A stretch of 64,000 bases of DNA from Phascolarctobacterium sp. (GTDB lineage: Bacteria; Bacillota; Negativicutes; Acidaminococcales; Acidaminococcaceae), in assembly GCA_017623055.1 (NCBI GenBank), contig JAGAPX010000012.1, forward strand, positions 1-64,000. The letters run 5' to 3'. The position numbers and the translations under genes are program-made. This document shows, one piece after another, positions 13,642 to 46,611 of this stretch. How positions within the stretch are numbered: position 1 is the stretch's first letter; each line of letters begins with the position of its first letter. The notes under the pieces were generated by a model. It searched no databases and was not told the origin of the DNA. It saw only the letters and a program-made list of their open reading frames with translations.

Positions 13642-13895
13642 AAAATAAAAAGCCCTGTCCTAATTTAGAACAGGGCGAATAACCGCGGTACCACCTATTT
13701 TCCCAACACGAATGTTGAGCACTCAATACGCGTAACGTGCATCCACGTTTCTGCCTACTACTACTTCAGCAGAAAAACTCAAGGGCTACATAACCTGCTA
13801 CATTGCTACGGCTTGCACCAACCGCCGTTTCTCTAAAAGCTTTGCCTTGCAGGGAACCTCCCCATCATAGTCTTTTGATTTTAAATTACCTGTAT
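13642..13895 (-). promoter_or_regulatory. T-box riboswitch leader of valS
   Basis: The T-box sequence AGGTGGTACCGCGG is on the minus strand at 13683-13696. It precedes a terminator (GCCCTGT/ACAGGGC stem, 13652-13676, then TTTTTATTTT). Upstream, AGAGAAACGG..GGTTGGTGCAAGCCG matches the Stem I AG bulge and distal region, and GUAGG with CAGAAACG marks the end of Stem I. A GUA triplet in the expected specifier zone fits valine, although several overlapping GUA repeats make the exact codon uncertain. Confidence 0.92.
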
Positions 13896-14149: not shown

Positions 14150-14257
14150 TAAAGCAATGTAGTGCTGACGGAATTAAGTGGAGTTAACCACGTGTACTGC
14201 ATTGTGATTATGCCGACCGTCTGGGCAAGCACTTGAGCCCGGGCGATTTTTGTTTTT
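14150..14257 (+). promoter_or_regulatory. ZTP (pfl-type) riboswitch with overlapping intrinsic terminator
   Basis: P1 is a 9-bp helix (14155-14163 with 14196-14204) that encloses GCTGACGG and a GTGG/CCAC hairpin. Downstream is CCGACCGTCTGGGCA (14213-14227), the hallmark 3' domain of ZTP/pfl riboswitches. The same CGTCTGGGC also forms the 5' arm of a terminator with GCCCGGGCG (14237-14245), followed by ATTTTTGTTTTT. Ligand binding would hold the 3' domain and prevent termination. The loop AAGCACTTG is complementary to CAAGTGCTT at 14266-14274, offering a further switch. Confidence 0.75.
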
Positions 14258-26602: not shown

Positions 26603-27493
26603 TTACACATCATAGACCTTATCAAGCTCTTTTAACTCTCTAAAGGTATCAATCTCAACAATATCATCAAAGGTACATTCACGAACGCCAACATTGTACT
26701 CTTTGATATATTCACCTAAGGCTACTTGATCCCAATATCTTTCCTTTCCCCCAGGAGAATTATAAACTTGTTCTACATGGTTACAAAGCTTTCTGCCATC
26801 ATCTTCAGTCCAGTAAGAAATGCCAAACATATGATGACAGTTCAAGCCACCAACACCTAACTTTTTAATTCTATCACCTTCCATAAAGAAACACCAGTCA
26901 TCAGTTTTCTCAGTAGGAACGCCAAGATAGTTAGAGCTATATTGGTACTTAGTAATCAATTTCGGATTGGACAAAAGCAAATCTGCTTCTAATACGTACG
27001 CATTAGAAAGCAAATATCTAATACACATTACAGAAGAAATATTATTCGCTTCATTATATAAAGGATTTTCCACAAACTTAACCATAGGATATTTGTATTT
27101 CAGTTGATCAAACTGTTCAGCCAAATATCCACGCACAATAATTATCTCTTCAATTCCAGCAGCGATTACTGCATCAAGCAATGTATCAATAATGCGTACA
27201 CCTTTTACACGCACCAACGGTTTCGGTGTATTCAAAGTAATAGGAACCAAACGGCTACCAAAACCTGCTGCAATAAAAATCGCTCTTTTTACACGGTAAG
27301 GTTCTAAAGCATTGAGTCCTTTTTTAGTAATCTGCTTATTTTCAATAAAGCCTTTTTCTTCCAAGTCATTCCATAGTTTATTAACAGTACCAACAGAAAA
27401 ATCCAGCTCTTCGGCCAATTCTTTTTGAGTCAATTTTTCATTATTGTTAGCCTCAAGATAAGTTAAAATCGCAAATTCTTTTTTATTCAACAT
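26603..27493 (-). CDS. LicC-like choline/ethanolamine-phosphate cytidylyltransferase with N-terminal winged helix
   Basis: A 296-aa two-domain protein. Residues 1-65 are a winged helix-turn-helix resembling MarR/Lrp-type domains (QKELAEELDFSVGTVNKLWNDL). Residues 68-296 are a nucleotidyltransferase with AAGFGSRLVP (75-84) and a PKPLV Lys (K91), as in LicC, which makes CDP-choline from phosphocholine. The metal Asp is in VLEADLLLSN. It sits between an organophosphate transporter gene and gtrA. The DNA-binding domain suggests self-regulation. CDP-ethanolamine or a related CDP-alcohol is possible. Confidence 0.8.
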   Translation of the reverse strand: MLNKKEFAILTYLEANNNEKLTQKELAEELDFSVGTVNKLWNDLEEKGFIENKQITKKGLNALEPYRVKRAIFIAAGFGSRLVPITLNTPKPLVRVKGVRIIDTLLDAVIAAGIEEIIIVRGYLAEQFDQLKYKYPMVKFVENPLYNEANNISSVMCIRYLLSNAYVLEADLLLSNPKLITKYQYSSNYLGVPTEKTDDWCFFMEGDRIKKLGVGGLNCHHMFGISYWTEDDGRKLCNHVEQVYNSPGGKERYWDQVALGEYIKEYNVGVRECTFDDIVEIDTFRELKELDKVYDV

Positions 27494-29240: not shown

Positions 29241-31916
29241 CTAATAAGGCAGCACTGCATCTTTTTTGGCAACCTTCCAATTTTCTTTATTCCATATATC
29301 AGTATGTACAGAATACCAATCGCCAGGAATATACGTATTTTTATCGTGCTTGCTCAATGAATGTGCATGAGAAGCAAATACGTATTGAGCATCTTCATAT
29401 TTTGCCTTATTCGAAATTTCTTTACCAGTAAAAGGATTTACCGGATTATGAATGATTCCCTGCGTAGCAATAGTCACAACATCAGCATTAGTCATAAATT
29501 CGTCAGTTTCTTTAAACCCTTGACTATCAAAATCTTTTACTAACAACAGCGGATAATACCACTCAATATTTTGAGGCTCTCCTTTTCCATCATCTAATAC
29601 TAATTCATCAAAATGGTATAAAGGTGCACCGTGGTCAGACACTAAAATAATACGTGTATTATCATACACACCGTTATCTTTCATAAAATCAAACCACTCA
29701 GCCAATTTTAAGAAAGCCGCCATATTAGCATGATAATGACTTACATGATCTCTAGTCGTCATCTTTAGTTTGCGACCATTAACTACATACCAATCCTCAT
29801 TAACAAAACTAGTATTATTTACTCTAGACGCTGGTACATAATCAGGCATTTGCAACAAGCATGGAGCATGAGGCACATTATTAGCAAATGACAAAAAGTT
29901 ATTACCTTGCTCTTTTATATGGCTCATCTCAGGAAGAGTATCTAAAACCTTGTATTCTCTCATAAAATTCTTATTAACACCAAAAGCCGTGTGTAAGGAA
30001 GTAAGAGATTGATTAAGCACCTTACCAGATAAATAGTCACCATTATCATACAAAAACTTTTGCATAATCACCGGTGCACTTTTAAAGATGCCATAAAAAT
30101 AAAAGTTCCTGTTATTCATTGCCACAATTTCTGTAGCAGATTCTTGATCAGTAATTACAGTATCTTCTGTGTAAGCAGCACCAGTAACTACATTAAAGCC
30201 TTCCTTACCAAAAAGTTCTGGCATCAAATTACTTGCTTCACGATGTTTTTGAATTAGAGAATCTTTATCCCGTTTGTTCATCTCCACAGGCGTATATTCG
30301 TACCCCCCGAAAATACTCGGAGCACCGAATATAGTATGTCCACCATGAGATATAACATTATTATAATACGTAAAGCCGGAAAACTTTTCTTTCAGCTCAG
30401 GCTTTTCATTAAAGATATAAGGTACATATTCTCCCATCGCCCTGTCAAGCATTACAACAACTACGTTTTTTCCATTTTTACTTAACGACAGATGACCTTT
30501 AGTACCTTGCACGGTGGCTTGCACTTCACCGCCATCATTCAACGCCGCTTGCACGCCAAAAATATTAAAGGTAGTCATTCCTAACACAGCAATTATTCCA
30601 ATACTCAAAACCTCAAAAACATTCTTCTTATACTTCTTCCAGATGAAATTTAAAACTAAAATCACTGCAATTATAGCAACTAAGTTAATAATCTTTTGAC
30701 TATTAGAAAATCCTACACGTTTTTCGTAATGCAACATCATACTCAAAACGCCAAAACTATTATTGAAAAACATATAATCTACAATAGCAGCACCAGAAGC
30801 AAACCACACTATACGTTCAATACTAACTTTGTTATCATCAGCAGCTAACCAATAGAATACGCCACCCCATAAAACAAATGTACCAAATGCTATGGCAGAA
30901 GAACTTGCTACATACCACAACGGATTATTAAAATAATTTACTATAACAAATTCTTTGGGAGCAGAACCAATAACAGCAGAAGGTATCAGCGCTCCTATAA
31001 GTAGTGCAAGGAAAAACGCTCCCGCAAAATATAGATTGCGATTTGGTTCTTCAGTAATAGCTTTAACCTTACGTGGGAATTTGCTTCTAATCAGCTTACA
31101 AATAAGACGTGAATTTAATAACAATCCCAACACAGTAGAATAAAAGGCTTTACGTAAATTAGGTTCTGGTGCCAAAACACAACCGTACAAAATTATGAAT
31201 GCACCAAGTACGCCAAATACAATGTTCACACCCTTATCTACGTTATCAAGTTTACAGATAATGGTCTTAACAAGATTAAAGATATTGTTAAGAGTCCAGT
31301 AAAAAACCAATCCAGCCGGAGAAGCATATAAAAACACTAAAAAGAAGCATGCCATACCATAAAGCTGCATCTTAGTTTTTCTCGTTAAATTTTTTGTAAA
31401 AATATAGGCGGAAACAAGATTTACAGCTGTCATTATAAAAGGCAAAACATTAATAGTCATACCCGCAATTGACAGTAACCCATCGGGCACACCTAAATCT
31501 TTAATAGGGCCAAGAATTGCTCCATTTAAAATCTCCAAATGAGAAAGGAACTGATATGCAGCCACGAAGAATGGAATTTCCAAAAATAAGGAAATAGAAC
31601 CTTTAATGGAATCCAAAGGACTGTATCCATTTTGACGATAATAGGTTTGCAGTATCATAAGCTGCTCATCGCCCTTAAAGGTTTTCTTAATATGTTCTAC
31701 ACCCTTACTAAGTTTTACCTCAATATCTCTTTCTGCTTCCTGTATTGCATCTGCCCTATTGTACAAGGGTAATACCAAAAGATTTACTATAAAGCTTAAG
31801 GCAATGATAGATATACCCGGGTTGCCAATCAAGCGAAAAGCAAGATAATAGATTACCTCAAAAATTATCTGTAATGGCATGAAGATTAGCTGGTACATTA
31901 TTGACAAAAATTCCAT
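29241..31916 (-). CDS. YidC/Oxa1-like insertase domain fused to an alkaline-phosphatase-superfamily transferase (copy 1)
   Basis: An 891-aa membrane protein. Residues 1-225 align with YidC/Oxa1: FIVNLLVLPL, then YRQNGYSPLDSIKGSISLFLEIPFFVAAYQFL, and ASPAGLVFYWTLNNIFNLV. The groove Arg of bacterial YidC is Asn (N45). Residues about 230-455 add several membrane segments. Residues about 480-890 are an extracytoplasmic sulfatase/LtaS-like domain with MLDRAMGEY (D491), SHGGHTIFGAPS (probable nucleophile T528) and SDHG (D761/H762). It is in an operon with a glycerophosphotransferase and a paralogue. Probably transfers a phospho-group onto a surface glycan; substrate unknown. Confidence 0.82.
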   Translation of the reverse strand: MEFLSIMYQLIFMPLQIIFEVIYYLAFRLIGNPGISIIALSFIVNLLVLPLYNRADAIQEAERDIEVKLSKGVEHIKKTFKGDEQLMILQTYYRQNGYSPLDSIKGSISLFLEIPFFVAAYQFLSHLEILNGAILGPIKDLGVPDGLLSIAGMTINVLPFIMTAVNLVSAYIFTKNLTRKTKMQLYGMACFFLVFLYASPAGLVFYWTLNNIFNLVKTIICKLDNVDKGVNIVFGVLGAFIILYGCVLAPEPNLRKAFYSTVLGLLLNSRLICKLIRSKFPRKVKAITEEPNRNLYFAGAFFLALLIGALIPSAVIGSAPKEFVIVNYFNNPLWYVASSSAIAFGTFVLWGGVFYWLAADDNKVSIERIVWFASGAAIVDYMFFNNSFGVLSMMLHYEKRVGFSNSQKIINLVAIIAVILVLNFIWKKYKKNVFEVLSIGIIAVLGMTTFNIFGVQAALNDGGEVQATVQGTKGHLSLSKNGKNVVVVMLDRAMGEYVPYIFNEKPELKEKFSGFTYYNNVISHGGHTIFGAPSIFGGYEYTPVEMNKRDKDSLIQKHREASNLMPELFGKEGFNVVTGAAYTEDTVITDQESATEIVAMNNRNFYFYGIFKSAPVIMQKFLYDNGDYLSGKVLNQSLTSLHTAFGVNKNFMREYKVLDTLPEMSHIKEQGNNFLSFANNVPHAPCLLQMPDYVPASRVNNTSFVNEDWYVVNGRKLKMTTRDHVSHYHANMAAFLKLAEWFDFMKDNGVYDNTRIILVSDHGAPLYHFDELVLDDGKGEPQNIEWYYPLLLVKDFDSQGFKETDEFMTNADVVTIATQGIIHNPVNPFTGKEISNKAKYEDAQYVFASHAHSLSKHDKNTYIPGDWYSVHTDIWNKENWKVAKKDAVLPY

Positions 31917-33197: not shown

Positions 33198-35957
33198 TCA
33201 ATACGGCAAAACGGCTTCTTCTTTTTCAAGCTTCCAATTATTTTTATCCAACATATTAGTATGAACGGAATACCATCTACCTGGAGCAAAACTACACCCC
33301 ATATTCGGATGAACTCTATATTTATCCGAACCTAACACAAACTGCTTATTTTCTTTATATGCTTCACTAATTTTATTACCAGTAAAAGGATTGGTAGGTT
33401 CATCAATAAGATCTTTAAAGGCAATATTTGGAACATCTGCGTTAGTCATAAATTTTTCTGAAACAGTAAATCCTTTAGCGTTAAAGTCTTTAACTAATAA
33501 CAGAGGATAATATCTTTCGATATCACCATATCCATCTTTAACATCTTCTACAATCATATTCTTAAATTGTCTTATATTCCAACCATGATCGCCTACCAAA
33601 ATTATTCTGGTATTATCATACACACCATTATCACGCATTAAATCAAACCATTCTGCCAACTTTAACATCGTAGCCATATTAGTATGGTAGTGGCTTACAT
33701 GTACCTTCTCTTTCATATTTAGCACATTACCGTTAACATCATTACGAATTATCTCGTCCTTTTCATACAAATGATTATCAACATTTGAACTTATTTCATA
33801 GTTTGGCAGCTGTAAAAAACATGGTGCATGAGTAATATCATTAGTTAGTGCTAAGAAATTATTACCTTCATCTTCAAACTTGGTAATCTCTTTAAAACGT
33901 TCAAGCTTTTTGTAAAAATAAATGTAGTCTTTCGGAGCACCAAAAGCTGTATGAAGTGAAGTAATTTCTTGATTAAATGCTTTACCAGCTAAATAGTTAC
34001 CACCATCATACAAAAATCTTTGCATTATTATTGGTGCAACTTTAAAAATGCCAAAGCAATAAAAATTCCTTTTATTAGTTTTTACTGTTTCTTCATCAGA
34101 ATTGACATTATTTTCATCAGCTTTTGCTCTAACGATATTTCTATACGCTTTTATATAGGGATGAGCAGCATATATAGAAAAATCAGGTATTGGCTGATAG
34201 TTAACCATGGGTGGGTCAAATACAGTTACACTATAACCTGCTTCACCAAAAACTACAGGCATAACCTTCAAAGCCTCATTATGCTTATCTACCAATAATT
34301 GAGTATCACGTTTATTCATCTCAAAAGGTGTGTATTCATAACCACCAAAAAGTCCTGGGGATCCAAAAACAGTATGCCCACCGTGAGATAATGTATTTAC
34401 ATAAAAGGTAAAGCCTGAAAACTTATCTTTCAATTCAGGTTTCTCATTAAAAATATAAGGTATATATTCACCCATTGCTCTATCTAACATAAACACAATG
34501 ACATTATTACCTTTTTTACTTAATGTAATAGAACCTTCCTCTACTGCAACAACATTTGGTACCTTTTTAACAACTTTGCCCAATGAGTCTTGAATACTAA
34601 ACACATTGACAACTACCATTCCGGACATTGCTAAAATACCGATTAACAATAATTCAGAGATATTTTTACGATATCTTTTCCAAATAAAATTCAAAGCAAA
34701 AGCAACTGCAAAGATTACTGCTAAGTTAATATTTTTATAGGTTGAACCAAATTTTATACCTCTTTCGTATTGCAGAGTAGAATTCAGCACACCCAAATCA
34801 TTACCAAAGAACATATAGGTAACAATAGAAGAACCTACAATAAATAAAAAAGCACGCTCAATTTTAGCCTTGTATTCATCAGCTGTAAGCCAGTAAAAAA
34901 CTCCACCCCAAAGCACAAAGGCACCTAAGGCAATGGCAAAAGCATTCGCCACATACCACAACGGATTATCAAAATAATCCATAATGACAAATTCTTGAGG
35001 TGAAGATTCAATAACTGCAGAAGGAATCAATGCACCTACAAGCACTGCCATAAAAATTGCCCCGGCAAAGAAAATGTTTCTTGCTGGAACTTCAATGACA
35101 TTTTCTTTTTTGCAAGGGAACTTGCTTCGAATAATTCCATAAATAAAGCGAGCATTTAAAAGCAAAGCAAATATTGCAGAATAAAAAGTTTTACGGATAT
35201 TGGGATTAGGAGAAAGCAAACTACTATATACAACAATGAAAATACCGCAAAGACCCATAGCAATATCTACGCCTTTTTCAGTATCATCCAACTTGCAAAT
35301 AATAGTTTTTACAAGATTAAACAGATTGTTCAAAGTCCAGTAGAATACCAACCCTGCAGGGGACGCATATAAGAAAACAAGGAAGAAGCATGCCATACTG
35401 TACAATTGGATTTTAGTCTTGCTGGCCAAATCTTTAGTAAAGATATAAGCAGAAACAAGATTAACCGCAGTCATAACGAAAGGCAAAACGTTAATGGTCA
35501 TACCCGCAATAGTTAAAAGTCCATCAGGTGCACCTAAATCCTTAACGGGACCAAGGCTAGCACCATTTAAAATTTCTAAATGAGAAAGAAATTGGTATGC
35601 TGCCACAAAGAAAGGAATTTCCAAAAACAAGGAAATAGAACCTTTGATGGAATCCAAAGGACTGTAGCCATTTTGACGATAGTAAGTTTGCAACATCATC
35701 AACTGCTCGTCACCCTTAAAGGTCTTTTTAATATGATCTACGCCTTTACTAAGCTTAACCTCCATATCCCGTTCTGCTTCTTGAATAGCATCTGCCCTAT
35801 TGTATAAAGGCAAAACTAACAAATTAACAATAAAACTTAACGCAATAATAGAAATACCAGGATTACCAATAAGCCTAAACGCCAAATAATAAATAACTTC
35901 AAAAATTATTTGCAAAGGCATAAAAATCAATTGATATAACAATGACAAGAATTCCAT
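33198..35957 (-). CDS. YidC/Oxa1-like insertase domain fused to an alkaline-phosphatase-superfamily transferase (copy 2)
   Basis: A 919-aa paralogue of the gene at 29241. The first 225 residues are nearly identical to copy 1 although many codons differ, pointing to purifying selection. The Asn-for-Arg change (N45) is shared. The middle membrane region and the catalytic domain diverge more. Motifs kept are MLDRAMGEY (about 491), SHGGHTVFGSPG (T about 529) and GDHG (about 789). Inserts are seen after the nucleophile block, so acceptor or donor specificity may differ. The ATG follows AAGGAGAG. It is second in the operon after a CPBP protease gene. Confidence 0.82.
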   Translation of the reverse strand: MEFLSLLYQLIFMPLQIIFEVIYYLAFRLIGNPGISIIALSFIVNLLVLPLYNRADAIQEAERDMEVKLSKGVDHIKKTFKGDEQLMMLQTYYRQNGYSPLDSIKGSISLFLEIPFFVAAYQFLSHLEILNGASLGPVKDLGAPDGLLTIAGMTINVLPFVMTAVNLVSAYIFTKDLASKTKIQLYSMACFFLVFLYASPAGLVFYWTLNNLFNLVKTIICKLDDTEKGVDIAMGLCGIFIVVYSSLLSPNPNIRKTFYSAIFALLLNARFIYGIIRSKFPCKKENVIEVPARNIFFAGAIFMAVLVGALIPSAVIESSPQEFVIMDYFDNPLWYVANAFAIALGAFVLWGGVFYWLTADEYKAKIERAFLFIVGSSIVTYMFFGNDLGVLNSTLQYERGIKFGSTYKNINLAVIFAVAFALNFIWKRYRKNISELLLIGILAMSGMVVVNVFSIQDSLGKVVKKVPNVVAVEEGSITLSKKGNNVIVFMLDRAMGEYIPYIFNEKPELKDKFSGFTFYVNTLSHGGHTVFGSPGLFGGYEYTPFEMNKRDTQLLVDKHNEALKVMPVVFGEAGYSVTVFDPPMVNYQPIPDFSIYAAHPYIKAYRNIVRAKADENNVNSDEETVKTNKRNFYCFGIFKVAPIIMQRFLYDGGNYLAGKAFNQEITSLHTAFGAPKDYIYFYKKLERFKEITKFEDEGNNFLALTNDITHAPCFLQLPNYEISSNVDNHLYEKDEIIRNDVNGNVLNMKEKVHVSHYHTNMATMLKLAEWFDLMRDNGVYDNTRIILVGDHGWNIRQFKNMIVEDVKDGYGDIERYYPLLLVKDFNAKGFTVSEKFMTNADVPNIAFKDLIDEPTNPFTGNKISEAYKENKQFVLGSDKYRVHPNMGCSFAPGRWYSVHTNMLDKNNWKLEKEEAVLPY

Positions 35958-36678: not shown

Positions 36679-37698
36679 TTACCTATTCCCATACATCTTT
36701 TCATAATAATTTTGGTACTCACCGCTGATGATATTCTCCCACCATTCACGATTATCTAAATACCATTGAATAGTTTTCTTGATACCATCAGCAAACTTAG
36801 TTTCCGGCAACCAACCTAATTCATTATGAATCTTGGTCGAGTCAATTGCATAACGCATATCATGTCCCTTGCGGTCAGTAACATACGTAATCAAGCTTTC
36901 CGGCTTGCCAAGTTCCTTGCAGATAAGCTTAACAATGTCAATATTGCGCATCTCGTTATGACCGCCAATATTATAAACTTCGCCAACCTTGCCATTATGA
37001 AGAATCAAATCAATTGCCTTGCAGTGGTCTTCAACATAAAGCCAGTCACGCACATTGATACCTTCGCCATAAACTGGCAACGGTTTATCATTCAAAGCAT
37101 TGGCTATCATCAAAGGAATAAGCTTTTCAGGAAAATGATATGGGCCATAATTATTAGAACAACGACTAATAGTCACAGGCAAACCATAGGTACGATGGTA
37201 AGCAAGTACCAATAAATCTGCTCCTGCCTTAGAGCTGCTGTAAGGAGAGCTTGTGTGAATAGGTGTTTCTTCCGTAAAGAACAAATCAGGTCTGTCAAGC
37301 GGCAAATCACCATAAACTTCATCAGTAGAAACTTGATGATAACGCTTAATGCCAAACTTACGGCACGCATCCATAAGGACAGCAGTACCCATCACGTTAG
37401 TCTGCAAGAAAATTCCAGGGTCTTCAATGGAACGATCAACATGGCTTTCTGCTGCAAAATTAACTACGATATCAGGATGTTCTTCTTCAAAAAGCTTTTC
37501 AACAGCTTCACGGTCGCAGATATCTGCCTTTACAAAACGGAAGTTAGGATTATCCATCACGCTTTCTAAAGTAGAAAGATTGCCTGCGCAAGTAAGTTTA
37601 TCCAAACAAATAATGCGATAATCAGGATACTTCGCCAACATATGAAATATAAAATTAGATCCAATAAATCCGGCACCGCCGGTGATTATGATAGTCAT
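36679..37698 (-). CDS. rmlB: dTDP-glucose 4,6-dehydratase
   Basis: A 339-aa short-chain dehydrogenase-type enzyme that makes dTDP-4-keto-6-deoxyglucose, a precursor of rhamnose and other deoxysugars. Rossmann loop GGAGFIGSNF at the N-terminus, catalytic STDEVYGD and YSSSKAGAD (YxxxK). The start at 37698 has GGAGG six bases upstream; an in-frame extension to 37725 covers it. RmlA, RmlC and RmlD are not in the window. It is the last gene of the minus-strand glycan operon, followed by a terminator. Confidence 0.96.
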   Translation of the reverse strand: MTIIITGGAGFIGSNFIFHMLAKYPDYRIICLDKLTCAGNLSTLESVMDNPNFRFVKADICDREAVEKLFEEEHPDIVVNFAAESHVDRSIEDPGIFLQTNVMGTAVLMDACRKFGIKRYHQVSTDEVYGDLPLDRPDLFFTEETPIHTSSPYSSSKAGADLLVLAYHRTYGLPVTISRCSNNYGPYHFPEKLIPLMIANALNDKPLPVYGEGINVRDWLYVEDHCKAIDLILHNGKVGEVYNIGGHNEMRNIDIVKLICKELGKPESLITYVTDRKGHDMRYAIDSTKIHNELGWLPETKFADGIKKTIQWYLDNREWWENIISGEYQNYYEKMYGNR

Positions 37699-37758
37699 AA
37701 AACACCTCCAGTAACCAATTCTCAAAAATTTATGTAATATATTTTTAATTGAATTATT

Positions 37759-38946
37759 CTATAAAAGCTCAAAATGTATATGGTTAATCGCCCTCTTACA
37801 TCTTTCAACAGCTTCTTCATTGTTTTGGCCTAAAGCTATAACATAACCAAATCTACCAGTATCATCACAGGCATCATAATATCTATGTCCTATTTTACCT
37901 ATAACTTCCACCTTAATTACACCTTCAATATTTTGGGCATCTTGCAAACCAGAAATTCCTTTAATAACACCTTTTTTAGATGGAATAAATACTATTGCAC
38001 CACTAGTACCAGTATCTGTTATATCATTTACGAGTGGCTTTTCTCCCAAAGCTAAATCTATAGCTGCTTGAGACATATTAATCCCTTTTACAGTGTTATC
38101 TAACAGATAAGTAGTAATACAATCACCACCCATACGTCCGCCTAATTCAATCATCTTAGGGCCATTAGGAGTAACTTTTATTTCTATGTGTGCAGGACTA
38201 TTATCAATACCTATAGCCTTTACTGCCTGTACAGCAACATCAGATATTTGCTTTTTAATCATTTTCGGCAATGCAGATGGTTGCACATGTCCTATTTCGT
38301 AGAAGTTAGGTGCTCCAGAAGTAATTTTATCAGTAATTTGTAAAACATAAGGTATGCTATTAATAACAACTACTTCAACACTTACTTCGGGACCACTTAA
38401 GTATTCTTCTATCAATATATCTCCTGTTAAGCCAGCTTTAGAACTACTGTATGCAGCAACACTTAATTCTGACTCATTTGATACTAAATTAATTCCTTGT
38501 CCACCTGCACTGTCAACTGGTTTTGTAATGACAGGATAACAAATATCACACTTAAAAGAATCTAATTCTTCCTTTTTAACATATTGAAACTTAGGATGAG
38601 GCACACCATATTTCACAAAAGAATATAACATTTCTAATTTATTTGTTGCTTTAATAGAAACGTCTTCAGAATAAAAAGGCAGACCAAGATTACTTGCCAC
38701 ATATGCTGCTGTTACAACAGATGTATCACAAGCACCACAAATTACACCATCAGGTTTAAATTCTTTAGCAATATCGAGAACAGCATTTTTATCACGTAAA
38801 CTGCAACTAAAATTGTGATTTACATAAGGTACTGCTGGTGCATTACAGTCTATGTCAACCAATCCTACATCTAAGCCACATTCTTTAGCCTTTTCTATAA
38901 TAGGTATCTGAAATATAGGCCCACCTAAAAACAATAATTTTTTCAT
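37759..38946 (-). CDS. ATP-grasp family ligase
   Basis: A 395-aa ATP-grasp enzyme. The N-terminal pre-ATP-grasp fold starts MKKLLFLGGPIFQIPII. The ATP-grasp core follows, with YPVITKPVDSAGGQGINLV, LIEEYLSGPEVSVEVVV and EIKVTPNGPKMIELGGRMGGD (metal and ATP residues), and a C-terminal cap. The family joins a carboxylate and an amine via acyl-phosphate. Its place directly after a cytidylyltransferase fusion and an aminotransferase suggests it adds an amino acid or acyl group to a glycan decoration. Substrate unknown. Confidence 0.8.
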   Translation of the reverse strand: MKKLLFLGGPIFQIPIIEKAKECGLDVGLVDIDCNAPAVPYVNHNFSCSLRDKNAVLDIAKEFKPDGVICGACDTSVVTAAYVASNLGLPFYSEDVSIKATNKLEMLYSFVKYGVPHPKFQYVKKEELDSFKCDICYPVITKPVDSAGGQGINLVSNESELSVAAYSSSKAGLTGDILIEEYLSGPEVSVEVVVINSIPYVLQITDKITSGAPNFYEIGHVQPSALPKMIKKQISDVAVQAVKAIGIDNSPAHIEIKVTPNGPKMIELGGRMGGDCITTYLLDNTVKGINMSQAAIDLALGEKPLVNDITDTGTSGAIVFIPSKKGVIKGISGLQDAQNIEGVIKVEVIGKIGHRYYDACDDTGRFGYVIALGQNNEEAVERCKRAINHIHFELL

Positions 38947-38955
38947 AAGTTTCCC

Positions 38956-40296
38956 TCAATGCCTAATAATCTTTATATTTGATTTCTTTTCAAATTGTTC
39001 CATGATGTCTGAAATTGCACAAGAAATGTTATTGGAAATATTGTGTTCATCATAATCGTCATTAACTGCCCTCAGAAATGCAACAAATTCATATGGTATC
39101 CCTTCACCATCTAACTGATAAAAATATCTTTTATTATTCAACGGATTCTCAAATCTAATTTCAAAATAATCTGTCTTCCACCAAGGCGCTGGTACATATA
39201 CATATCCTTCTGTACCAGATATAATTAGTTCTCCTTCTGCTTTTACACCAGTCCCTACCTTAATTGATGCGACAGCATTTAAATACCTCAAATCTATTTT
39301 AGTAAAAACATCCATTTGATTGTTATCTAACATAGTAGTTATTGTCTTATCAACATAATCTGTAGATAACAATTCAAATACAGGTAAAAGTGCAGTGGGC
39401 CCCCATGCAGCCAAGCTCCCCCAATTATCATTAAATGATTGAACACTATCATTATTAGTACTTAAACTAGTGCAAACAGCATCAATAGAAGTTACTTTAC
39501 CAATTTTCCCACCTTTTACTAACAGTAACAATCTAGAAAAAGCAGTTGAATATGCAGTTCTTAATGCTTCCATAAGAACTAAGTTATTATCTTTAGCAAT
39601 TTTAATGAGTTCTAAACATTGTTTCTTTGACATAGCTAGGGGCGACTCGCATAATACATGTTTACCATATAAAAGTGCCTCTTTTACTTCTTTATAATGA
39701 AGATGTGGATTAGAATGAACATACACTGCATCTATCCCTTCTAGAAACTCACTATAACTTTCTCCATAAGCGCACAATTTCTTAGTATCATCATTAAGAT
39801 TAGTGTCATATCTCGAATAGATTTTACAAATTTCAACACCACTTACACTAGACGCTTCTCTATAAACCTTGTTTATAAAACTAGAATAGCCAACCAAACC
39901 AATTCTAGTGTTCTGTACTTTCTTTCTTAATTCAGTACTAGAAACACCTTCTGTTCTTGGTAAATAAACAACTTTACAATAACTATTTAAGTAATCGAAC
40001 TTTCCAACCCAATCAGAGCCTACTGTAAAAATATCAACATCATATCGTTTGATATCATCTATTTTTTGCCCTTCATATTCTTCTACAATAATTTGATCAG
40101 CCAATCCCGTAGACTTAACAGCTTCAATTCGTTCCACTAATGACTGTTTAACATTTATTTTACCGCGAGTTTTATCAAAGTCATCTGCTGTAACAGCAAC
40201 AATAAGATAATCACCCAAAGCCTTTGCTCTTTGTAATAGCTTTATATGTCCATAATGAAGTAAATCATATGTCCCATAAGTGATTACTTTTACCAT
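38956..40296 (-). CDS. Cytidylyltransferase fused to a Gfo/Idh/MocA-type oxidoreductase domain
   Basis: A 446-aa two-domain protein. Residues 1-128 are a TagD-like cytidylyltransferase with GTYDLLHYGH (8-17, HxGH type) and RTEGVSST (114-121). Residues 131-446 resemble Gfo/Idh/MocA oxidoreductases (IGLVGYSSF..., HSNPHLHYKEVKEALLYGKHVLCE). The usual EKP catalytic Lys is replaced: residues 216-219 read CESP. The dinucleotide loop is also degenerate (GYSSFI). The fused half may be non-redox or altered. Neighbours are an aminotransferase upstream and an ATP-grasp ligase downstream, 10-18 bp apart. Confidence 0.82.
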   Translation of the reverse strand: MVKVITYGTYDLLHYGHIKLLQRAKALGDYLIVAVTADDFDKTRGKINVKQSLVERIEAVKSTGLADQIIVEEYEGQKIDDIKRYDVDIFTVGSDWVGKFDYLNSYCKVVYLPRTEGVSSTELRKKVQNTRIGLVGYSSFINKVYREASSVSGVEICKIYSRYDTNLNDDTKKLCAYGESYSEFLEGIDAVYVHSNPHLHYKEVKEALLYGKHVLCESPLAMSKKQCLELIKIAKDNNLVLMEALRTAYSTAFSRLLLLVKGGKIGKVTSIDAVCTSLSTNNDSVQSFNDNWGSLAAWGPTALLPVFELLSTDYVDKTITTMLDNNQMDVFTKIDLRYLNAVASIKVGTGVKAEGELIISGTEGYVYVPAPWWKTDYFEIRFENPLNNKRYFYQLDGEGIPYEFVAFLRAVNDDYDEHNISNNISCAISDIMEQFEKKSNIKIIRH

Positions 40297-40314: not shown

Positions 40315-41388
40315 TCATAACAAACCACGTTTTTGCATATCTTTAAAAGCATTTACCAATGTAGTATTATCTTCTACTCGTAAATTACCCAAATGCCCTA
40401 TTCTAAATACAGTTTCAGCCAATTCTCCACCGTTAGGACAAATCCAAATTCCATATTCATCTTTAAGAATTTCAAAAATCTCTTTTGCAGAAGCTGTTAA
40501 AGGATGGATGGGTGTTACTGCATTAGACATAGATTCAGATACAATCTCAAATGGTAAGTCTTTTATCTTATTTCTGAAATCTTCTGCTAAATTGACAACC
40601 TTTTGTATTTCAACATCCGCACCACCATTAGCTTCTATTTCTTTCAATCTAGCATTAATTTGTAATAAAATACCTACTGCTGGAGTAAAAGGAGTTTGAC
40701 CTCTCTCACCATTTTTTAGGGCATCATTTAAATCAAAATACATGCATTTACATTTATGCTCATATACTCTATTTATTCCTTTAGGTGACAAAACTATTAC
40801 TGAAATACCTGGTGGGCATGCTAATGCTTTTTGAGATCCAGTAATCATAACGCCAACATCAAGCGCCTCCATATTAAAATCATCCGCCAAAAAAGAGCTT
40901 ACAGCATCAACTACTAGAAACAAATTATTACGTTTGCAGAAGGCACTAATCATATCAATATCATAATGAACACCAGTAGATGTCTCATGAACATTAACCA
41001 AGAATCCAGTATACCCAGCATTCTCATATTGCTCTAACATTTCTGCAGTTAAAACCTTACCTGTTTTTAATTTTATTTCATCATAAGGTATATGGTGCAA
41101 TTCACATAACTGCACAAAGCGATGTCCAAAGCTACCACCATTTACGATTAGGACTTTATCTGTCTCATCAAAAACGTTCATAATAGTTGCTTCCATAGAT
41201 GCGGTACCAGAACCAGTAATGAAAACAACTCTTGAGTCACCAGAAGCCTTTGCAAACTTTTTCATCAGAGCTTCATTTTCACGCATTATTTTAGAAAACT
41301 CAGGTGTTCTAAAATACGGAACTTGTTCAGCACCAATTTCACGAACAATATCGCAAGATTGAACTGGCCCAACAGTAAAATTTAACAT
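40315..41388 (-). CDS. Class V aminotransferase, 2-aminoethylphosphonate/serine-pyruvate type
   Basis: A 357-aa PLP enzyme. The probable PLP Lys is in [11 protein letters not shown], with the upstream VDAVSSF aspartate block and N-terminal NFTVGPVQ, a typical opening for alanine-glyoxylate and phosphonate aminotransferases. The start at 41388 has GGAGG just upstream; a longer frame to 41421 lacks support. No PEP mutase gene is nearby, so phosphonate metabolism is not shown. With the cytidylyltransferase fusion it may aminate a keto-alcohol phosphate or CDP-linked intermediate. Confidence 0.82.
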
Positions 41389-41445
41389 ATATCCTCCGTT
41401 ATGACACATGGACAATACCAACTAAAAGAATTTAAAATATAAAAT

Positions 41446-42351
41446 CTATCTCATTTCTTTTAAAACTTCACTAAAAGTTTTTACAGTAGAAACTATCAAT
41501 TTACCATGAGAAGTACCTACTTGTTTAGGAGTCATATAATCCTCTCCATAACCAACTTTAAGTACTTCATCATAACATTTAGGAACAGGAAAACTCATAC
41601 CTTCAAACTCCATATAACAAACATCATCATACCAGCAACGTTTATAACGTTCACACTCTTCTATTTTATATCTGAACATTAAAATTTCAACATCTTCACT
41701 GTCAGAATACCATTCCGCAATTTTTGAATATCTGTCAAATAATTCTTTAACACTCCCGAATATAATCTCTACATACTTTGCCTTTATTTTTTTAATCATT
41801 TTTTTAAACATATTAGTAGAATTTCTATATGTAATATGTTTCATTAGTCTTCTAATACGATTCATTTCGACAAGCTGCTTTTTCAATAAACACTCATCTT
41901 TTACTAAACCATCTAAAACAAATATGTCTAAAAAAACACCCTGATTAAACTCAACAATTTTAGCTTCATATGGAAGCATCATACACGTTTTCGTGTTTCT
42001 TAATTGAAAGTGTCCACGCATATAATTTTTATCAGTATATGCTGATTGTAATAAATACAAATCATTAAATTCTACCTCAGCAATACTTATTAACTTATCA
42101 TAATCTTCCCTAAAAATAACAACATCAATATCATCATCCCAAGGAATAAATCCTTTATGCCTTACAGCTCCTAGCAATGTTCCATATGCTAAAAAATATC
42201 TAATTTGATACTTTCTGCACACTTCATCAAACTTAACTAATAAATCCAGCTCAATTGCCCACAACTCTTTTATGTCACGTGTTACCAAATATCCACTTCT
42301 ATATTCTTCTTTGTAAAAATTATCACTTAAATTAATTTTTAATGGTAACAT
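41446..42351 (-). CDS. LicD family phosphotransferase
   Basis: A 301-aa protein of the LicD nucleotidyltransferase-fold family that transfers phosphocholine or similar phospho-alcohols from CDP carriers to surface sugars. The hallmark reads FLAYGTLLGAVRHKGFIPWDDDIDV, with G57-R64 and the WDDDID metal cluster at 71-76. It lies 57 bp before the aminotransferase gene in the same operon, consistent with a dedicated CDP-alcohol donor being made by the neighbours. Confidence 0.9.
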   Translation of the reverse strand: MLPLKINLSDNFYKEEYRSGYLVTRDIKELWAIELDLLVKFDEVCRKYQIRYFLAYGTLLGAVRHKGFIPWDDDIDVVIFREDYDKLISIAEVEFNDLYLLQSAYTDKNYMRGHFQLRNTKTCMMLPYEAKIVEFNQGVFLDIFVLDGLVKDECLLKKQLVEMNRIRRLMKHITYRNSTNMFKKMIKKIKAKYVEIIFGSVKELFDRYSKIAEWYSDSEDVEILMFRYKIEECERYKRCWYDDVCYMEFEGMSFPVPKCYDEVLKVGYGEDYMTPKQVGTSHGKLIVSTVKTFSEVLKEMR

Positions 42352-42472: not shown

Positions 42473-43588
42473 TCACAATTCCTTCTCCACCAGTTTCAAC
42501 GCACTGTCAATTACAGCATCCATATCATAATATTTGTACTCACCCAAGCGTCCACCAAAGATTACTTTGCTTTCTGCTTCAGCAAGTTTTTTATATCCTT
42601 CGTACAGCTTGCCGTTACGTTCATCGTTTACCGGATAGTAAGGTTCATCCCCTACTTTCCATTCACTACTGTACTCTCTGCTAATTACAGTCTTGGGTAA
42701 GTCATTACCTTCTTCATCCTTGCCAAACTCAAACCATTTGTGTTCAATAATCCGTGTCCAAGGAGTTTCTGGATCCGTATAGTTCACTGCAGCGTTGCCC
42801 TGGAAGTTAGGTTTATCAAGCACCTCGTTTTCAAAACGCACGCTGCGGTATTCCAAGTTACCCAGTTTATAATCAAAGTAAGCATCAATGGCGCCAGTGT
42901 AGATAACTTTTTCTGCCAACTTATCCAGTTCTTCTTTATTTTCTAAATAATCAACACCTAAACGCACTTCAATGCCTTCAAGCATATTGGCAACCATTTT
43001 GGTATAACCACCAACAGGAATACCTTGGTACAAAGCGTTGAAGTAATTATTGTCAAAAGTCAAACGTACAGGCAAACGTTTAATGATGAATGCAGGCAGT
43101 TCTGTACAAGGTCTGCCCCATTGCTTTTCGGTATAGCCTTTAATGAGCTTTTCGTAGATGTCAGTTCCAACTAGGGAAATTGCTTGTTCTTCTAAATTTA
43201 GAGGTTCAGTAATTCCTGCTTCATGCTTTTGTTCTTCAATCTTAGCTTCCGCTTCTTCCGGAGTTACCACACCCCACATTTTATTAAATGTGTACATATT
43301 AAAAGGCAGGCTGAATAATTCTCCCTTGTAATTTGCAACAGGAGAATTAGTAAAACAATTAAACTCTGCAAATTGGGTAACGTACTCCCAAACGTGCTTC
43401 AAGTTTGTATGGAAGATATGCGCACCGTAAACGTGTACGTTAATGCCTTCAATTTTTTCAGTATAGACATTGCCGGCAATGTTATTGCGTTTATCTATAA
43501 CTAAAACTTTTTTACCTCGCGCCTTTGCTTGTTGTGCAAATACTGCACCAAACAAACCACTACCAACTACTAAATAATCGTATTGCAT
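42473..43588 (-). CDS. glf: UDP-galactopyranose mutase
   Basis: A 371-aa flavoprotein converting UDP-galactopyranose to UDP-galactofuranose for surface glycans. FAD loop VVGSGLFGAVFAQQ, GKKVLVIDKRNNIAGN, and HVYGAHIFHTN are classic. The C-terminal FGGRLGEYKYYDMD block is conserved. The start at 43588 follows GGTGGAAAG. It implies a Galf-containing O-antigen or capsule. Confidence 0.97.
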   Translation of the reverse strand: MQYDYLVVGSGLFGAVFAQQAKARGKKVLVIDKRNNIAGNVYTEKIEGINVHVYGAHIFHTNLKHVWEYVTQFAEFNCFTNSPVANYKGELFSLPFNMYTFNKMWGVVTPEEAEAKIEEQKHEAGITEPLNLEEQAISLVGTDIYEKLIKGYTEKQWGRPCTELPAFIIKRLPVRLTFDNNYFNALYQGIPVGGYTKMVANMLEGIEVRLGVDYLENKEELDKLAEKVIYTGAIDAYFDYKLGNLEYRSVRFENEVLDKPNFQGNAAVNYTDPETPWTRIIEHKWFEFGKDEEGNDLPKTVISREYSSEWKVGDEPYYPVNDERNGKLYEGYKKLAEAESKVIFGGRLGEYKYYDMDAVIDSALKLVEKEL

Positions 43589-43633
43589 AAAACTTTCCAC
43601 CTTTTTAACAAGCATCTTAAGCTGTTAGATTAC

Positions 43634-44680
43634 TTACAACCACTTAAACTTTCTATTTTTATATAAGTTTCTTTTTGCCAAACTTCTCAAAGTTTTCTCT
43701 TTTCTGTTATATACTTTGAGCAAAATATCAAAAAGTGCTTTGTTTTTCATTTTCATAGCACCATACATCCATGTCCCAAATACAGAAATCATTGAGTTTT
43801 TATACACTTTGTCGGATTCAGACTGCCTAACTATTTCTTCAGAAAATATTTCAAAATATTCTTTTGTTAAGTCTTCCTTAATCCTGCCATAATTCCAAAG
43901 ATTACCTCTGAAACGATGCACAATGTATGTTTGTTTCAACTCAACAAAATTCATTTGTTCAACAAAAGATTTTATTTCATCATATTCCTTATGTAACATC
44001 ATTACTTTTTCTTTTGTTGCAATCTTAACAGAAGAATTAGAGTTGTCTTGTCTGTAGTTTAGATATGCTTTAGGAGTTAAAACTGCTCTATTCGCCAAAG
44101 CAGCAGTTTTAAAATTAAAAGAAGTATCTTGATAAGATGCACCTGGAGTACTTAAGAATTTGATTTCATTTGCTGTTAGAAAACTTCTTTTATAAATTGC
44201 AGACCATATAGAAGGTGCTCGCCACAATATTTGTTCCTTAGCATTGTCTCTATCTGAAACAACTTTATCAATGCGTAAATTGTTATAATACTTGAATACA
44301 TCTTTTGATTTTTCCCAATACAAATTGTAATTGGACTTAACTATATCCGCATCGTATTCTTTGGCTAACAAATATAACTCTTCAAACATATTTGTATTAA
44401 TAAAATCATCAGATTCTACGATGCCAATATACTCACCTTTCGCAATTTCCATACCCTTATTCATAGAATCGCCATAGCCACTATTAGGTTTATCAATAAC
44501 CACAATACGTTGGTCATTTTGAGCGAATTTTTTTATTATCTCCAAAGAACTATCTTTAGAACCATCATTTATACATATTATTTCTATATCAGTTAATGTT
44601 TGATTAACTATACTTCCTAAACATTTATCCAAGAACTTTTCTACATTACATATAGGAACAAGAACTGACACTTTAATCAT
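43634..44680 (-). CDS. Family 2 glycosyltransferase
   Basis: A 348-aa GT-A enzyme. VLVPICNVEKFLDKCLGSIVNQTLTDIEIICINDGSKD opens the nucleotide-sugar domain, and ESDDFIN supplies the DxD-like metal site. A C-terminal basic region may bind membrane or acceptor. GGGAGG lies before the ATG. It is the first gene of the minus operon that runs to rmlB, and faces a second GT2 gene across a candidate invertible promoter. Confidence 0.9.
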   Translation of the reverse strand: MIKVSVLVPICNVEKFLDKCLGSIVNQTLTDIEIICINDGSKDSSLEIIKKFAQNDQRIVVIDKPNSGYGDSMNKGMEIAKGEYIGIVESDDFINTNMFEELYLLAKEYDADIVKSNYNLYWEKSKDVFKYYNNLRIDKVVSDRDNAKEQILWRAPSIWSAIYKRSFLTANEIKFLSTPGASYQDTSFNFKTAALANRAVLTPKAYLNYRQDNSNSSVKIATKEKVMMLHKEYDEIKSFVEQMNFVELKQTYIVHRFRGNLWNYGRIKEDLTKEYFEIFSEEIVRQSESDKVYKNSMISVFGTWMYGAMKMKNKALFDILLKVYNRKEKTLRSLAKRNLYKNRKFKWL

Positions 44681-44723
44681 CGCGTTTCCTCCCTCTCATA
44701 ATATATGCCATCATAAAAAACCG

Positions 44724-44851
44724 AAAAGTACACCTTTTGGTACGTCTCCAAACATTTCTTGCAAGAGTTGTTTTTCGTAGTATATTACTGAAAACGTCTA
44801 CAATCTGTGTTATAATGTAGGAAAAAACAGCGTACCAAAAGGTGTACTTTT
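44724..44851. repeat. Perfect 21-bp inverted repeat flanking a promoter: candidate phase-variable inverton
   Basis: The left arm at 44724-44744 (AAAAGTACACC...GGTACG) is the exact reverse complement of the right arm at 44831-44851. They enclose 86 bp that carries an extended -10 promoter pointing right. The segment lies between divergent glycosyltransferase operons. No stable single hairpin function explains arms 86 bp apart, whereas site-specific inversion of a promoter is a known way to switch surface polysaccharide loci. No recombinase gene is in the window. Confidence 0.7.
44788..44816 (+). promoter_or_regulatory. Promoter inside the inverted-repeat segment, facing the plus-strand genes
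   Basis: Extended -10 TGTTATAAT (TATAAT at 44811-44816) and CTGAAA (44788-44793) at 17 bp. Transcription would start near 44823, just before the right arm. Confidence 0.7.
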
Positions 44852-44908
44852 TTGCATTCTAACCTGTGTTGTACACCAAGATTTAAATTTAAGGTGGTGT
44901 AAATCCCT

Positions 44909-45847
44909 ATGCCCGAAATTTCTGTTATCATCCCAGTGTATAATGTTGAAGACTGGTTACCAAAGTGTCTTGATAGTGTACTTAAGCAAACATTCTGTGA
45001 CTTTGAGGCGATTTGTATCAACGATGGTTCACCTGATAATAGTCTTAAAATTTTAGAACAATACGCCAAATCCGATGCCAGAATAAAAATCATATCTCAA
45101 AAAAACCAAGGGCTCTCAATGGCTAGAAATAACGGATTTTTAAACTCAACTGGTAAGTACATATACTTTTTAGATTCTGATGACGAAATTCATTACCAAA
45201 CATTAGAAATTGTTTACAAACTATCCCAAATGCATAATGCCAGATTAGTTTGTTGGGAATTCACCAGCAACGACATTAATAAGTTTCACAACAGAAAATT
45301 TGACATTAATAATCTAGATATTAATGTCTCACATTCACCTATTTCTCTTGGAACTCATAAAGAAAAATATAGCATTAATTTTAATGTATGTACAAAACTG
45401 TATAAACGTGAATTGCTAACTGGAATCGAATTTATTTCTGGAATACATTTTGAAGACGTCCCACACACATTTGCAATATTGTCCAAATATCCTAAGACCG
45501 TAGTCGTGCACGAGCAACTATATTTTTATAGAAGAAATCCAAACTCTATTACTAATCAAAAAGCAAATCCACAACAAATTAAAGATTACATTACTGGATT
45601 GCAGTATATATACGAACTATATGTTGATGCTAATATGCATAAAGAATTACAATTTTTATCTAAAAATTTTATTCCCAACATTTTGCAGCAACAATTAGGA
45701 CGTTGCCGGCATTCAACTACTGAAGTAAAACAAGAAATGTGGAAACTTCTAAACGAAGAATTCATATGGCTAGACTCTATAAATATGATTAGGTGGACTA
45801 ACCATAGAATTTTAAGATGTTGGCTTCATTTAAAATTCAATATATAA
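44909..45847 (+). CDS. Family 2 glycosyltransferase
   Basis: A 312-aa GT-A enzyme opening PEISVIIPVYNVEDWLPKCLDSVLKQTF, with NDGSPDNS and FLDSDDEIH (DxD) motifs. A basic C-terminal region follows. RBS AAGGTGG. It is the first gene of the rightward pair served by the promoter in the inverted-repeat segment. Codons are strikingly AT-rich compared with the metabolic genes of the window, as often seen in exchangeable glycan loci. Confidence 0.9.
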   Translation: MPEISVIIPVYNVEDWLPKCLDSVLKQTFCDFEAICINDGSPDNSLKILEQYAKSDARIKIISQKNQGLSMARNNGFLNSTGKYIYFLDSDDEIHYQTLEIVYKLSQMHNARLVCWEFTSNDINKFHNRKFDINNLDINVSHSPISLGTHKEKYSINFNVCTKLYKRELLTGIEFISGIHFEDVPHTFAILSKYPKTVVVHEQLYFYRRNPNSITNQKANPQQIKDYITGLQYIYELYVDANMHKELQFLSKNFIPNILQQQLGRCRHSTTEVKQEMWKLLNEEFIWLDSINMIRWTNHRILRCWLHLKFNI

Positions 45848-45918: not shown

Positions 45919-46611
45919 ATGATAAAAGATAAAATTTATAACATATTACAAACACCAATAATATCACAGGTTCTATCTAAAAAACTAAACAAAAATCTAC
46001 TAATAGAAAACAGAAAAATTGCACTACAAAAATACGGGTTTGATACTATAAAAACAATAGATTCTGCTTTAACAAAAAATCAAATTTTATACTTTGCGGA
46101 CTTTGGAACATTGCTAGGTATTGTTAGAGAAAATGGTTTCATCAAACATGATTTAGATATGGATTTCGGTATAATTGAAAATCAACATTTTTCTTGGAGC
46201 AAATTAGAAAAATTAATGCTAGCTAATAACATATTAAAAGTAAGACAATTCATTTATAAAGGAATTATTACAGAGCAAACTTATCGTTTTGAAAATTTAA
46301 CCATAGATTTTTTCTTACACTTTAGAGATGATAAAAATGATTTTGCATACGAGTATTACAAGCAGAAAAAATATCCTTATAAATCAAACAATGAATTCTC
46401 TGTTGCTAAATGGAACTTATATAAATTTGATAATATCGAACGTAGACGTGTTAATGAAATCGAAATAAATATTCCGTGCGATCCCGAAAAATATTTGGAA
46501 AGCATATACTCCACAAATTGGAGAATTCCCAATGCAAGATGGAAATCTTGTGATGGTCAGGGTTGGACTATATTAAATAACGAAATTGCTACAATGGTCC
46601 CGTTTGATTAA
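45919..46611 (+). CDS. LicD-like nucleotidyltransferase-fold protein
   Basis: A 230-aa protein. FADFGTLLGIVRENGFIKHD (near 60-78) and HDLDMDFG (77-84) match the LicD-type GTLLG...D-x-D signature in degenerate form; the usual WDDDID is HDLDMD. It probably transfers a phosphorylated alcohol or related group to a surface sugar. Very AT-rich. It is 71 bp after the GT2 gene and followed by a terminator. The fold is fairly clear; the substrate is not. Confidence 0.72.
   Translation: MIKDKIYNILQTPIISQVLSKKLNKNLLIENRKIALQKYGFDTIKTIDSALTKNQILYFADFGTLLGIVRENGFIKHDLDMDFGIIENQHFSWSKLEKLMLANNILKVRQFIYKGIITEQTYRFENLTIDFFLHFRDDKNDFAYEYYKQKKYPYKSNNEFSVAKWNLYKFDNIERRRVNEIEINIPCDPEKYLESIYSTNWRIPNARWKSCDGQGWTILNNEIATMVPFD

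Follow-up and report, generated by a model that had tools for sequence, protein, structure and literature searches.

A very probable invertible promoter, the likely target of a small serine recombinase, between divergent glycan operons of Phascolarctobacterium

The window analysed here, by which we mean the whole stretch of 64,000 nucleotides (Phascolarctobacterium sp., GCA_017623055.1, contig JAGAPX010000012.1, positions 1-64,000, forward strand), contains a short intergenic region from which two glycosyltransferase operons diverge. The rightward operon opens with a gene for a family 2 glycosyltransferase (GT2; 44909-45847, plus strand; Pfam PF00535, 1.5e-37) and continues with one for a marginal LicD-like protein (45919-46611, plus strand), which scores 20.3 bits with Pfam LicD against a cut-off of 22.6 and 50 bits, again below the cut-off, with NCBIfam NF045866, and which is 42% identical over 50 amino acids to the LicD protein of the leftward operon. 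The latter, encoded on the minus strand throughout, also begins with a GT2 (43634-44680; PF00535, 9e-32), 31% identical to its rightward counterpart. It then comprises a UDP-galactopyranose mutase (glf; 42473-43615; PF03275, 4.1e-82), a LicD family phosphotransferase (41446-42351; PF04991, 1.7e-41), a class V aminotransferase of the PhnW/BhcA-like kind (40315-41421; PF00266, 1.5e-18; NCBIfam TIGR03301, 157 bits, below cut-off), a cytidylyltransferase fused to a GFO/IDH/MocA oxidoreductase (38956-40296; PF01467 and PF01408; TIGR01518, glycerol-3-phosphate cytidylyltransferase, 120 bits, below cut-off), an ATP-grasp ligase (37759-38946; PF13535, 1.4e-19) and a NAD-dependent sugar epimerase/dehydratase (36679-37725; PF16363, 9.4e-89). 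Each operon therefore has a LicD or LicD-like gene as well as a GT2. The Pfam matches agree with the divergent arrangement and the leftward gene content (GT2, glf, LicD, aminotransferase and others) proposed in a first-pass annotation of this DNA; on the right its GT2 assignment stood, while its LicD-like assignment is the weaker part.

To the right of the intergenic element, genes on the minus strand encode GmhA-, HldE- and HldD-like proteins, heptosyltransferases and an LptC-type protein, and the element therefore lies beside a lipopolysaccharide core region. Several other features of the window were recorded in passing. Two proteins of about 900 amino acids with a YidC-type (60KD_IMP) N-terminal part are encoded on the minus strand at 29241-31916 and 33198-35957, the first also carrying a sulfatase-type domain and the second a weak DUF229 match, and between them lies a CDP-glycerol glycerophosphotransferase-type gene. 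An N-terminal MarR-like winged helix is joined to a nucleotidyltransferase domain in the product of 26603-27493 (minus strand), near GtrA and diacylglycerol kinase genes, and the window further holds a T-box leader (13668-13877, minus strand) and a ZTP riboswitch (14151-14233, plus strand).

A perfect 21-bp inverted repeat (44724-44744 and 44831-44851; 21 of 21 positions complementary) encloses 86 bases between the two operons, exactly as first annotated. It is the sole perfect inverted repeat of at least 14 bp with a spacer of 20-300 in the 64-kb window, the chance expectation for 21-bp inverted repeats being about 9e-6, and no second copy of its arm was found elsewhere in the window's genome. 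A half-site scan extended each arm to an imperfect palindrome of 28 bp, built as 13 + 2 + 13 bases; the arms had thus been placed correctly, but the predicted functional unit is larger than they are. The left recombination site is predicted at 44717-44744 (AAAACCGAAAAGT-AC-ACCTTTTGGTACG, core AC at 44730-44731; 37.9 bits, E 3.0e-6 with our site model R1) and the right one at 44831-44858 (CGTACCAAAAGGT-GT-ACTTTTTTGCATT, core GT at 44844-44845; 37.1 bits, E 5.2e-6), both sites belonging to the training set of that model. The right-site core GT is inverted relative to the left-site core AC, so that the two are the same dinucleotide read in opposite orientations. Inverted palindromic sites with matching 2-bp cores are the crossover geometry of Hin-type serine recombinases set for inversion. 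The 112 bp between the cores (44732-44843) would be the invertible segment, as judged from the cores, from in-silico inversion and from a homologue in a sister genus described below. Its overall layout, a short segment within inverted repeats of the 10-40 nt or so usual for promoter invertons, is the expected one. Core-to-core spacing is 114 bp in the window copy against 115-117 in relatives. In the window copy both outer half-sites have degenerated, each matching the consensus at nine of 13 positions, and the inner halves, both cores and the 21-bp perfect repeat are intact.

Only one good promoter was found in the intergenic region, and it lies within the segment: a -35 box CTGAAA (44788-44793), a 17-bp spacer and an extended -10 element TGTTATAAT (TATAAT at 44811-44816), on the plus strand. 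The extended -10 promoter of the first-pass annotation is thereby confirmed as a consensus match, one of 10/12 plus TG that makes it the top-scoring site of its region. It faces right as read, as had been stated, and its predicted transcription start lies 86 nt from the ATG at 44909. In the present orientation no leftward promoter better than 8/12 was found upstream of 44680. When the segment is inverted in silico, the -10 element comes to lie at 44759-44764 on the minus strand, aimed at the leftward operon as the annotation had foreseen, with a leader of 72 nt, and a comparable promoter is then absent from the other direction. Good ribosome-binding sites precede the first genes of both operons. 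The segment has, as a promoter inverton should, a promoter (by consensus match) and a gene to be served downstream, here a GT2 on either side. The assembly presents the window copy in one orientation alone.

Two resolvase-domain proteins are encoded in the window's genome, which has a single small serine recombinase gene, intact and located on another contig, C35 (positions 266-907; about 214 aa; PF00239, 108 bits). Its product aligns to Sin, and its catalytic domain is of the resolvase type and contains the catalytic serine motif (YVRVSS); the nearest solved structures are Sin (E 6.5e-32), gamma-delta resolvase and then entries named DNA-invertase. It does not belong to the Mpi family, since it scores 45.3 bits against a cut-off of 272 with the Mpi model NCBIfam NF009949. 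A pair of R1 sites (C35 168-195 and 284-311) overlaps or adjoins the 3' end of this gene, and the search advised with the first reading, for a recombinase with matching arms nearby, has therefore found one: the genome holds a site-specific recombinase accompanied by sites like those of the window. The reading frame of the recombinase passes through part of the 284-311 site before it ends at 263, within the segment (L053:168-311), so inversion there would alter the last residues of the enzyme. Core polarity is AC/GT in the window pair and GT/AC in the recombinase-linked pair of the same genome, a difference that should not block flipping because each pair is inverted within itself. When four genomes of the genus were scanned with R1, the window's genome gave exactly these two site pairs, all four sites scoring E<=5.2e-6 and the next match 0.12; as both pairs trained the model, this result shows the absence of further close pairs and is no test of these two. 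Recombinases of other kinds were also noted (XerD-like, prophage-type tyrosine, large serine), and R1 gave no sites on their contigs.

Sites were compared in register across the genus, each as two half-sites near TGTACCAAAAAGT around a 2-bp core. A looser search found pairs about 115-117 bp apart at many genus loci, and in every genus pair one core is the reverse complement of the other, the combinations being GT with AC and AT with AT. Across the family the recombinase (E<=1e-40) occurs in 15 of 59 genomes and the sites (E<=1e-3) in five, all five among the 15. Genomes G001 and G003, of two other species, encode an intact recombinase without an adjacent site and yet have five pairs and one pair of sites; because these pairs stand apart from the enzyme, action in trans is likely. 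The window's genome has one recombinase and two site pairs. Downstream of the genus pairs lie genes for autotransporters, for a YadA-anchored protein, for an ESPR-type adhesin-like protein and for a TpsB/TpsA pair. Autotransporters, YadA-type proteins and TpsB/TpsA systems are usual phase-variable surface genes. In most of the copies near surface genes the promoter faces away from the gene, so the genus copies taken alone would also be compatible with a fixed orientation; scoring of promoter orientation over 43 elements was too noisy for counting states. A DNA search with the intergenic region against the other three genus genomes gave a single arm-like match, in one genome alone, and hence no orthologous locus at which to compare orientation. 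A GTDB protein search with the left GT2 returned no relatives, and neither the arm nor the inner segment had an exact match among viral contigs.

A family of small XRE-type regulators, with 55-100% identity along most of the protein, occurs in several copies per genome (L055, L056, L067, L057, L068 and others); in the cases examined (L055, L056, L067) the next thing downstream is an autotransporter or YadA gene. Broken recombinase copies lie downstream of clpB at two loci (L064:1845-1991 and L085:5379-5764), each still preceding a site pair and a different surface gene, although the second L085 site is weak.

The cores were then considered over a wider set of 80 recombinase relatives from GTDB genomes of Clostridia and Negativicutes, with a pair finder that took no account of the core. 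In 48 of the 80 it picked two sites 3' of the recombinase gene, and at 36 of these 48 loci the cores were reverse complements, against 12.5 +/- 2.4 after shuffling; none of 100,000 shuffles reached 36, a figure uncorrected for kinship among the genomes. The 36 pairs fall into four classes (GT/AC or AC/GT, 23; CT/AG or AG/CT, 6; AT/AT, 5; AA/TT, 2) that vary between genomes but match within pairs, and palindromic half-sites around a 2-bp core are seen in the genus pairs and in these relatives alike. Judged from the sequences, such covariation is what a serine recombinase with a 2-bp overlap would require. In the Clostridia the next gene after the pair, judged by eye, often codes for a protein that is secreted or lies in the membrane, for a GT2, for a glf-like protein or for a flagellin.

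A homologous element was found in both orientations in two species of a neighbouring genus (L197 and L199). The locus is the same in both, with flanks 95-96% identical, whereas the 114 bp between the cores are 95.6% identical when one is inverted and 67% when compared directly; the inner half-sites are swapped and the outer ones retained, as predicted for recombination at the core. Since the flanks are shared and the segment matches only when inverted, segments of this kind do invert in nature. This element adjoins its own recombinase, about 60% identical to the C35 enzyme, and its half-sites differ somewhat from those of the window. Its inner segment almost forms a palindrome, in which TATAAT-like boxes point in both directions about a central hairpin. 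A second candidate for a flipped pair, L093 and L122, was set aside on account of opposite core polarities.

Promoter inversion, which the first-pass annotation had read from the anatomy of the locus alone, is now supported by three independent lines of evidence: the site pairs, of 13-2-13 layout, in which the 2-bp cores are inverted and vary together; the matching serine recombinase of the window's genome, whose gene has a site pair of this kind beside it; and a homologous element that lies in opposite orientations in two sister species. From these sequence comparisons we conclude that the window element is very probably an invertible promoter. Because of the sites, the recombinase, the covariation of the cores and the sister-species flip, it is most likely the C35 recombinase that would turn it, acting in trans. 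The enzyme would bind both 28-bp palindromic sites and cut at the AC and GT cores, whereupon the 112 bp between them would be reversed. As read, the promoter would drive the rightward GT2 and LicD-like genes through the 86-nt leader; inverted, it would drive the leftward genes (GT2, glf, LicD, aminotransferase, cytidylyltransferase/oxidoreductase, ATP-grasp and epimerase) through that of 72 nt. We infer from this that the window copy flips under the C35 enzyme, that its promoter is active and that the operons are expressed alternately.

As a single promoter would serve the right operon in the orientation read and the left operon after inversion, we consider it likely, though with less assurance than the inversion itself, that the element is an either/or switch by which one of two GT2 + LicD sets is chosen to decorate a surface glycan. 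That it turns a single operon ON or OFF, and that the other operon has a promoter of its own upstream or within, is the best of the other readings, but an unlikely one: internal promoters are possible and other genus copies do have just one surface gene before them, on one side, but here the first gene of each operon would stand 72-86 nt from the promoter in its own state, behind a good ribosome-binding site, and nothing above 8/12 offers the leftward operon another start upstream of 44680. It is distinctly less probable that the copy has decayed and is locked, a former invertible promoter held rightward by its degenerate outer half-sites. The nine matches of 13 in those half-sites, the single state seen and the broken recombinase copies beside sites in related genomes (L064, L085) would fit such decay; the intact inner halves, cores and 21-bp repeat argue against it, as does the intact recombinase of the same genome, and a locked segment would leave the leftward operon without any promoter.

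A first arm match in G001, at an XRE gene whose promoter region lies between sites of this kind, had prompted a quite different reading, one that the first-pass annotation had also named as an alternative, in which the arms are operators: a regulator such as a small XRE-type helix-turn-helix protein would bind the palindromes, loop the DNA and repress a fixed rightward promoter, with no flipping. Such proteins are abundant in the genus, the spacing of the sites is nearly constant at 115-117 bp, and in most copies a strong promoter stands in one orientation before surface genes. We dropped this explanation, which now seems very improbable, because the sites follow the recombinase and not the XRE genes (an XRE gene adjoins only four of ten genus site pairs, and most XRE copies lack such sites) and because the cores co-vary; looping would leave unexplained both the reverse-complement central dinucleotides in four classes and the inverted sister element. 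A MITE-like transposon relic with 21-bp terminal repeats, suggested by the shortness of the element and its inverted ends, is scarcely credible given that the flanks show no target duplication, that the arm has no other copy in the genome and that the paired sites adjoin a site-specific recombinase, not a transposase.

The invertible promoter proposed here may be set beside several known systems. Sin and other Tn552-type resolvases recombine res sites that stand in direct repeat and are accompanied by accessory sites; Sin is the closest solved structure to the C35 recombinase by sequence, but the Phascolarctobacterium pairs are inverted, not direct. The Hin and Gin invertases are serine recombinases that invert a promoter-bearing segment between palindromic sites with a 2-bp core. 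In all of these respects the hix and gix systems resemble the one proposed here, their sites being 26 bp long and those of Phascolarctobacterium 28 bp. The Mpi-controlled capsule promoters of Bacteroides fragilis are ON/OFF switches serving one operon each, whereas the window promoter has an operon diverging on each side of it and could serve the two of them. Moreover, the C35 recombinase is far from Mpi (45 bits against 272 with NF009949), and the Phascolarctobacterium sites, in contrast with those of the Mpi system, are 28-bp 13-2-13 palindromes. The mechanism of Hin has been reviewed (PMC11868660), and in B. fragilis a single serine recombinase is known to flip many surface promoters (PMC4747536).

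Invertons of gut bacteria have also been catalogued by read mapping with PhaseFinder, with a median of 11 per genome in Firmicutes_C, mostly Negativicutes (PMC11892184), and these resemble the window element in that a promoter close to surface genes is enclosed by short inverted repeats. Phascolarctobacterium is not named in the main text of that study, which links invertons to tyrosine-type or site-specific integrases, whereas the present system would combine a defined serine recombinase with a site rule. Our literature search, mainly of open-access papers, found no paper on surface phase variation in Phascolarctobacterium.

Phascolarctobacterium is a common gut genus of diderm Firmicutes, and the cell studied here can probably switch which of its sugar-coat gene sets is on, because its own genome encodes an enzyme for the target sites that flank the promoter. 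With a named recombinase, a 28-bp site rule that checks itself through the 2-bp core and a list of loci, this switching becomes testable from existing reads, and in many Clostridia, too, the core rule can pick out switches of this kind when assemblies are the only data. On balance, and by a narrow preference, we favour the broader view that a small non-Mpi serine recombinase, of a family found in Negativicutes and Clostridia, runs surface-wide switching in Phascolarctobacterium, covering autotransporters, two-partner secretion and an either/or glycan promoter that would always keep one operon or the other on. If the either/or switch is real, one promoter would alternate between two sets of LicD/GT2 decoration, and this would bear on immune recognition and on phage attachment.
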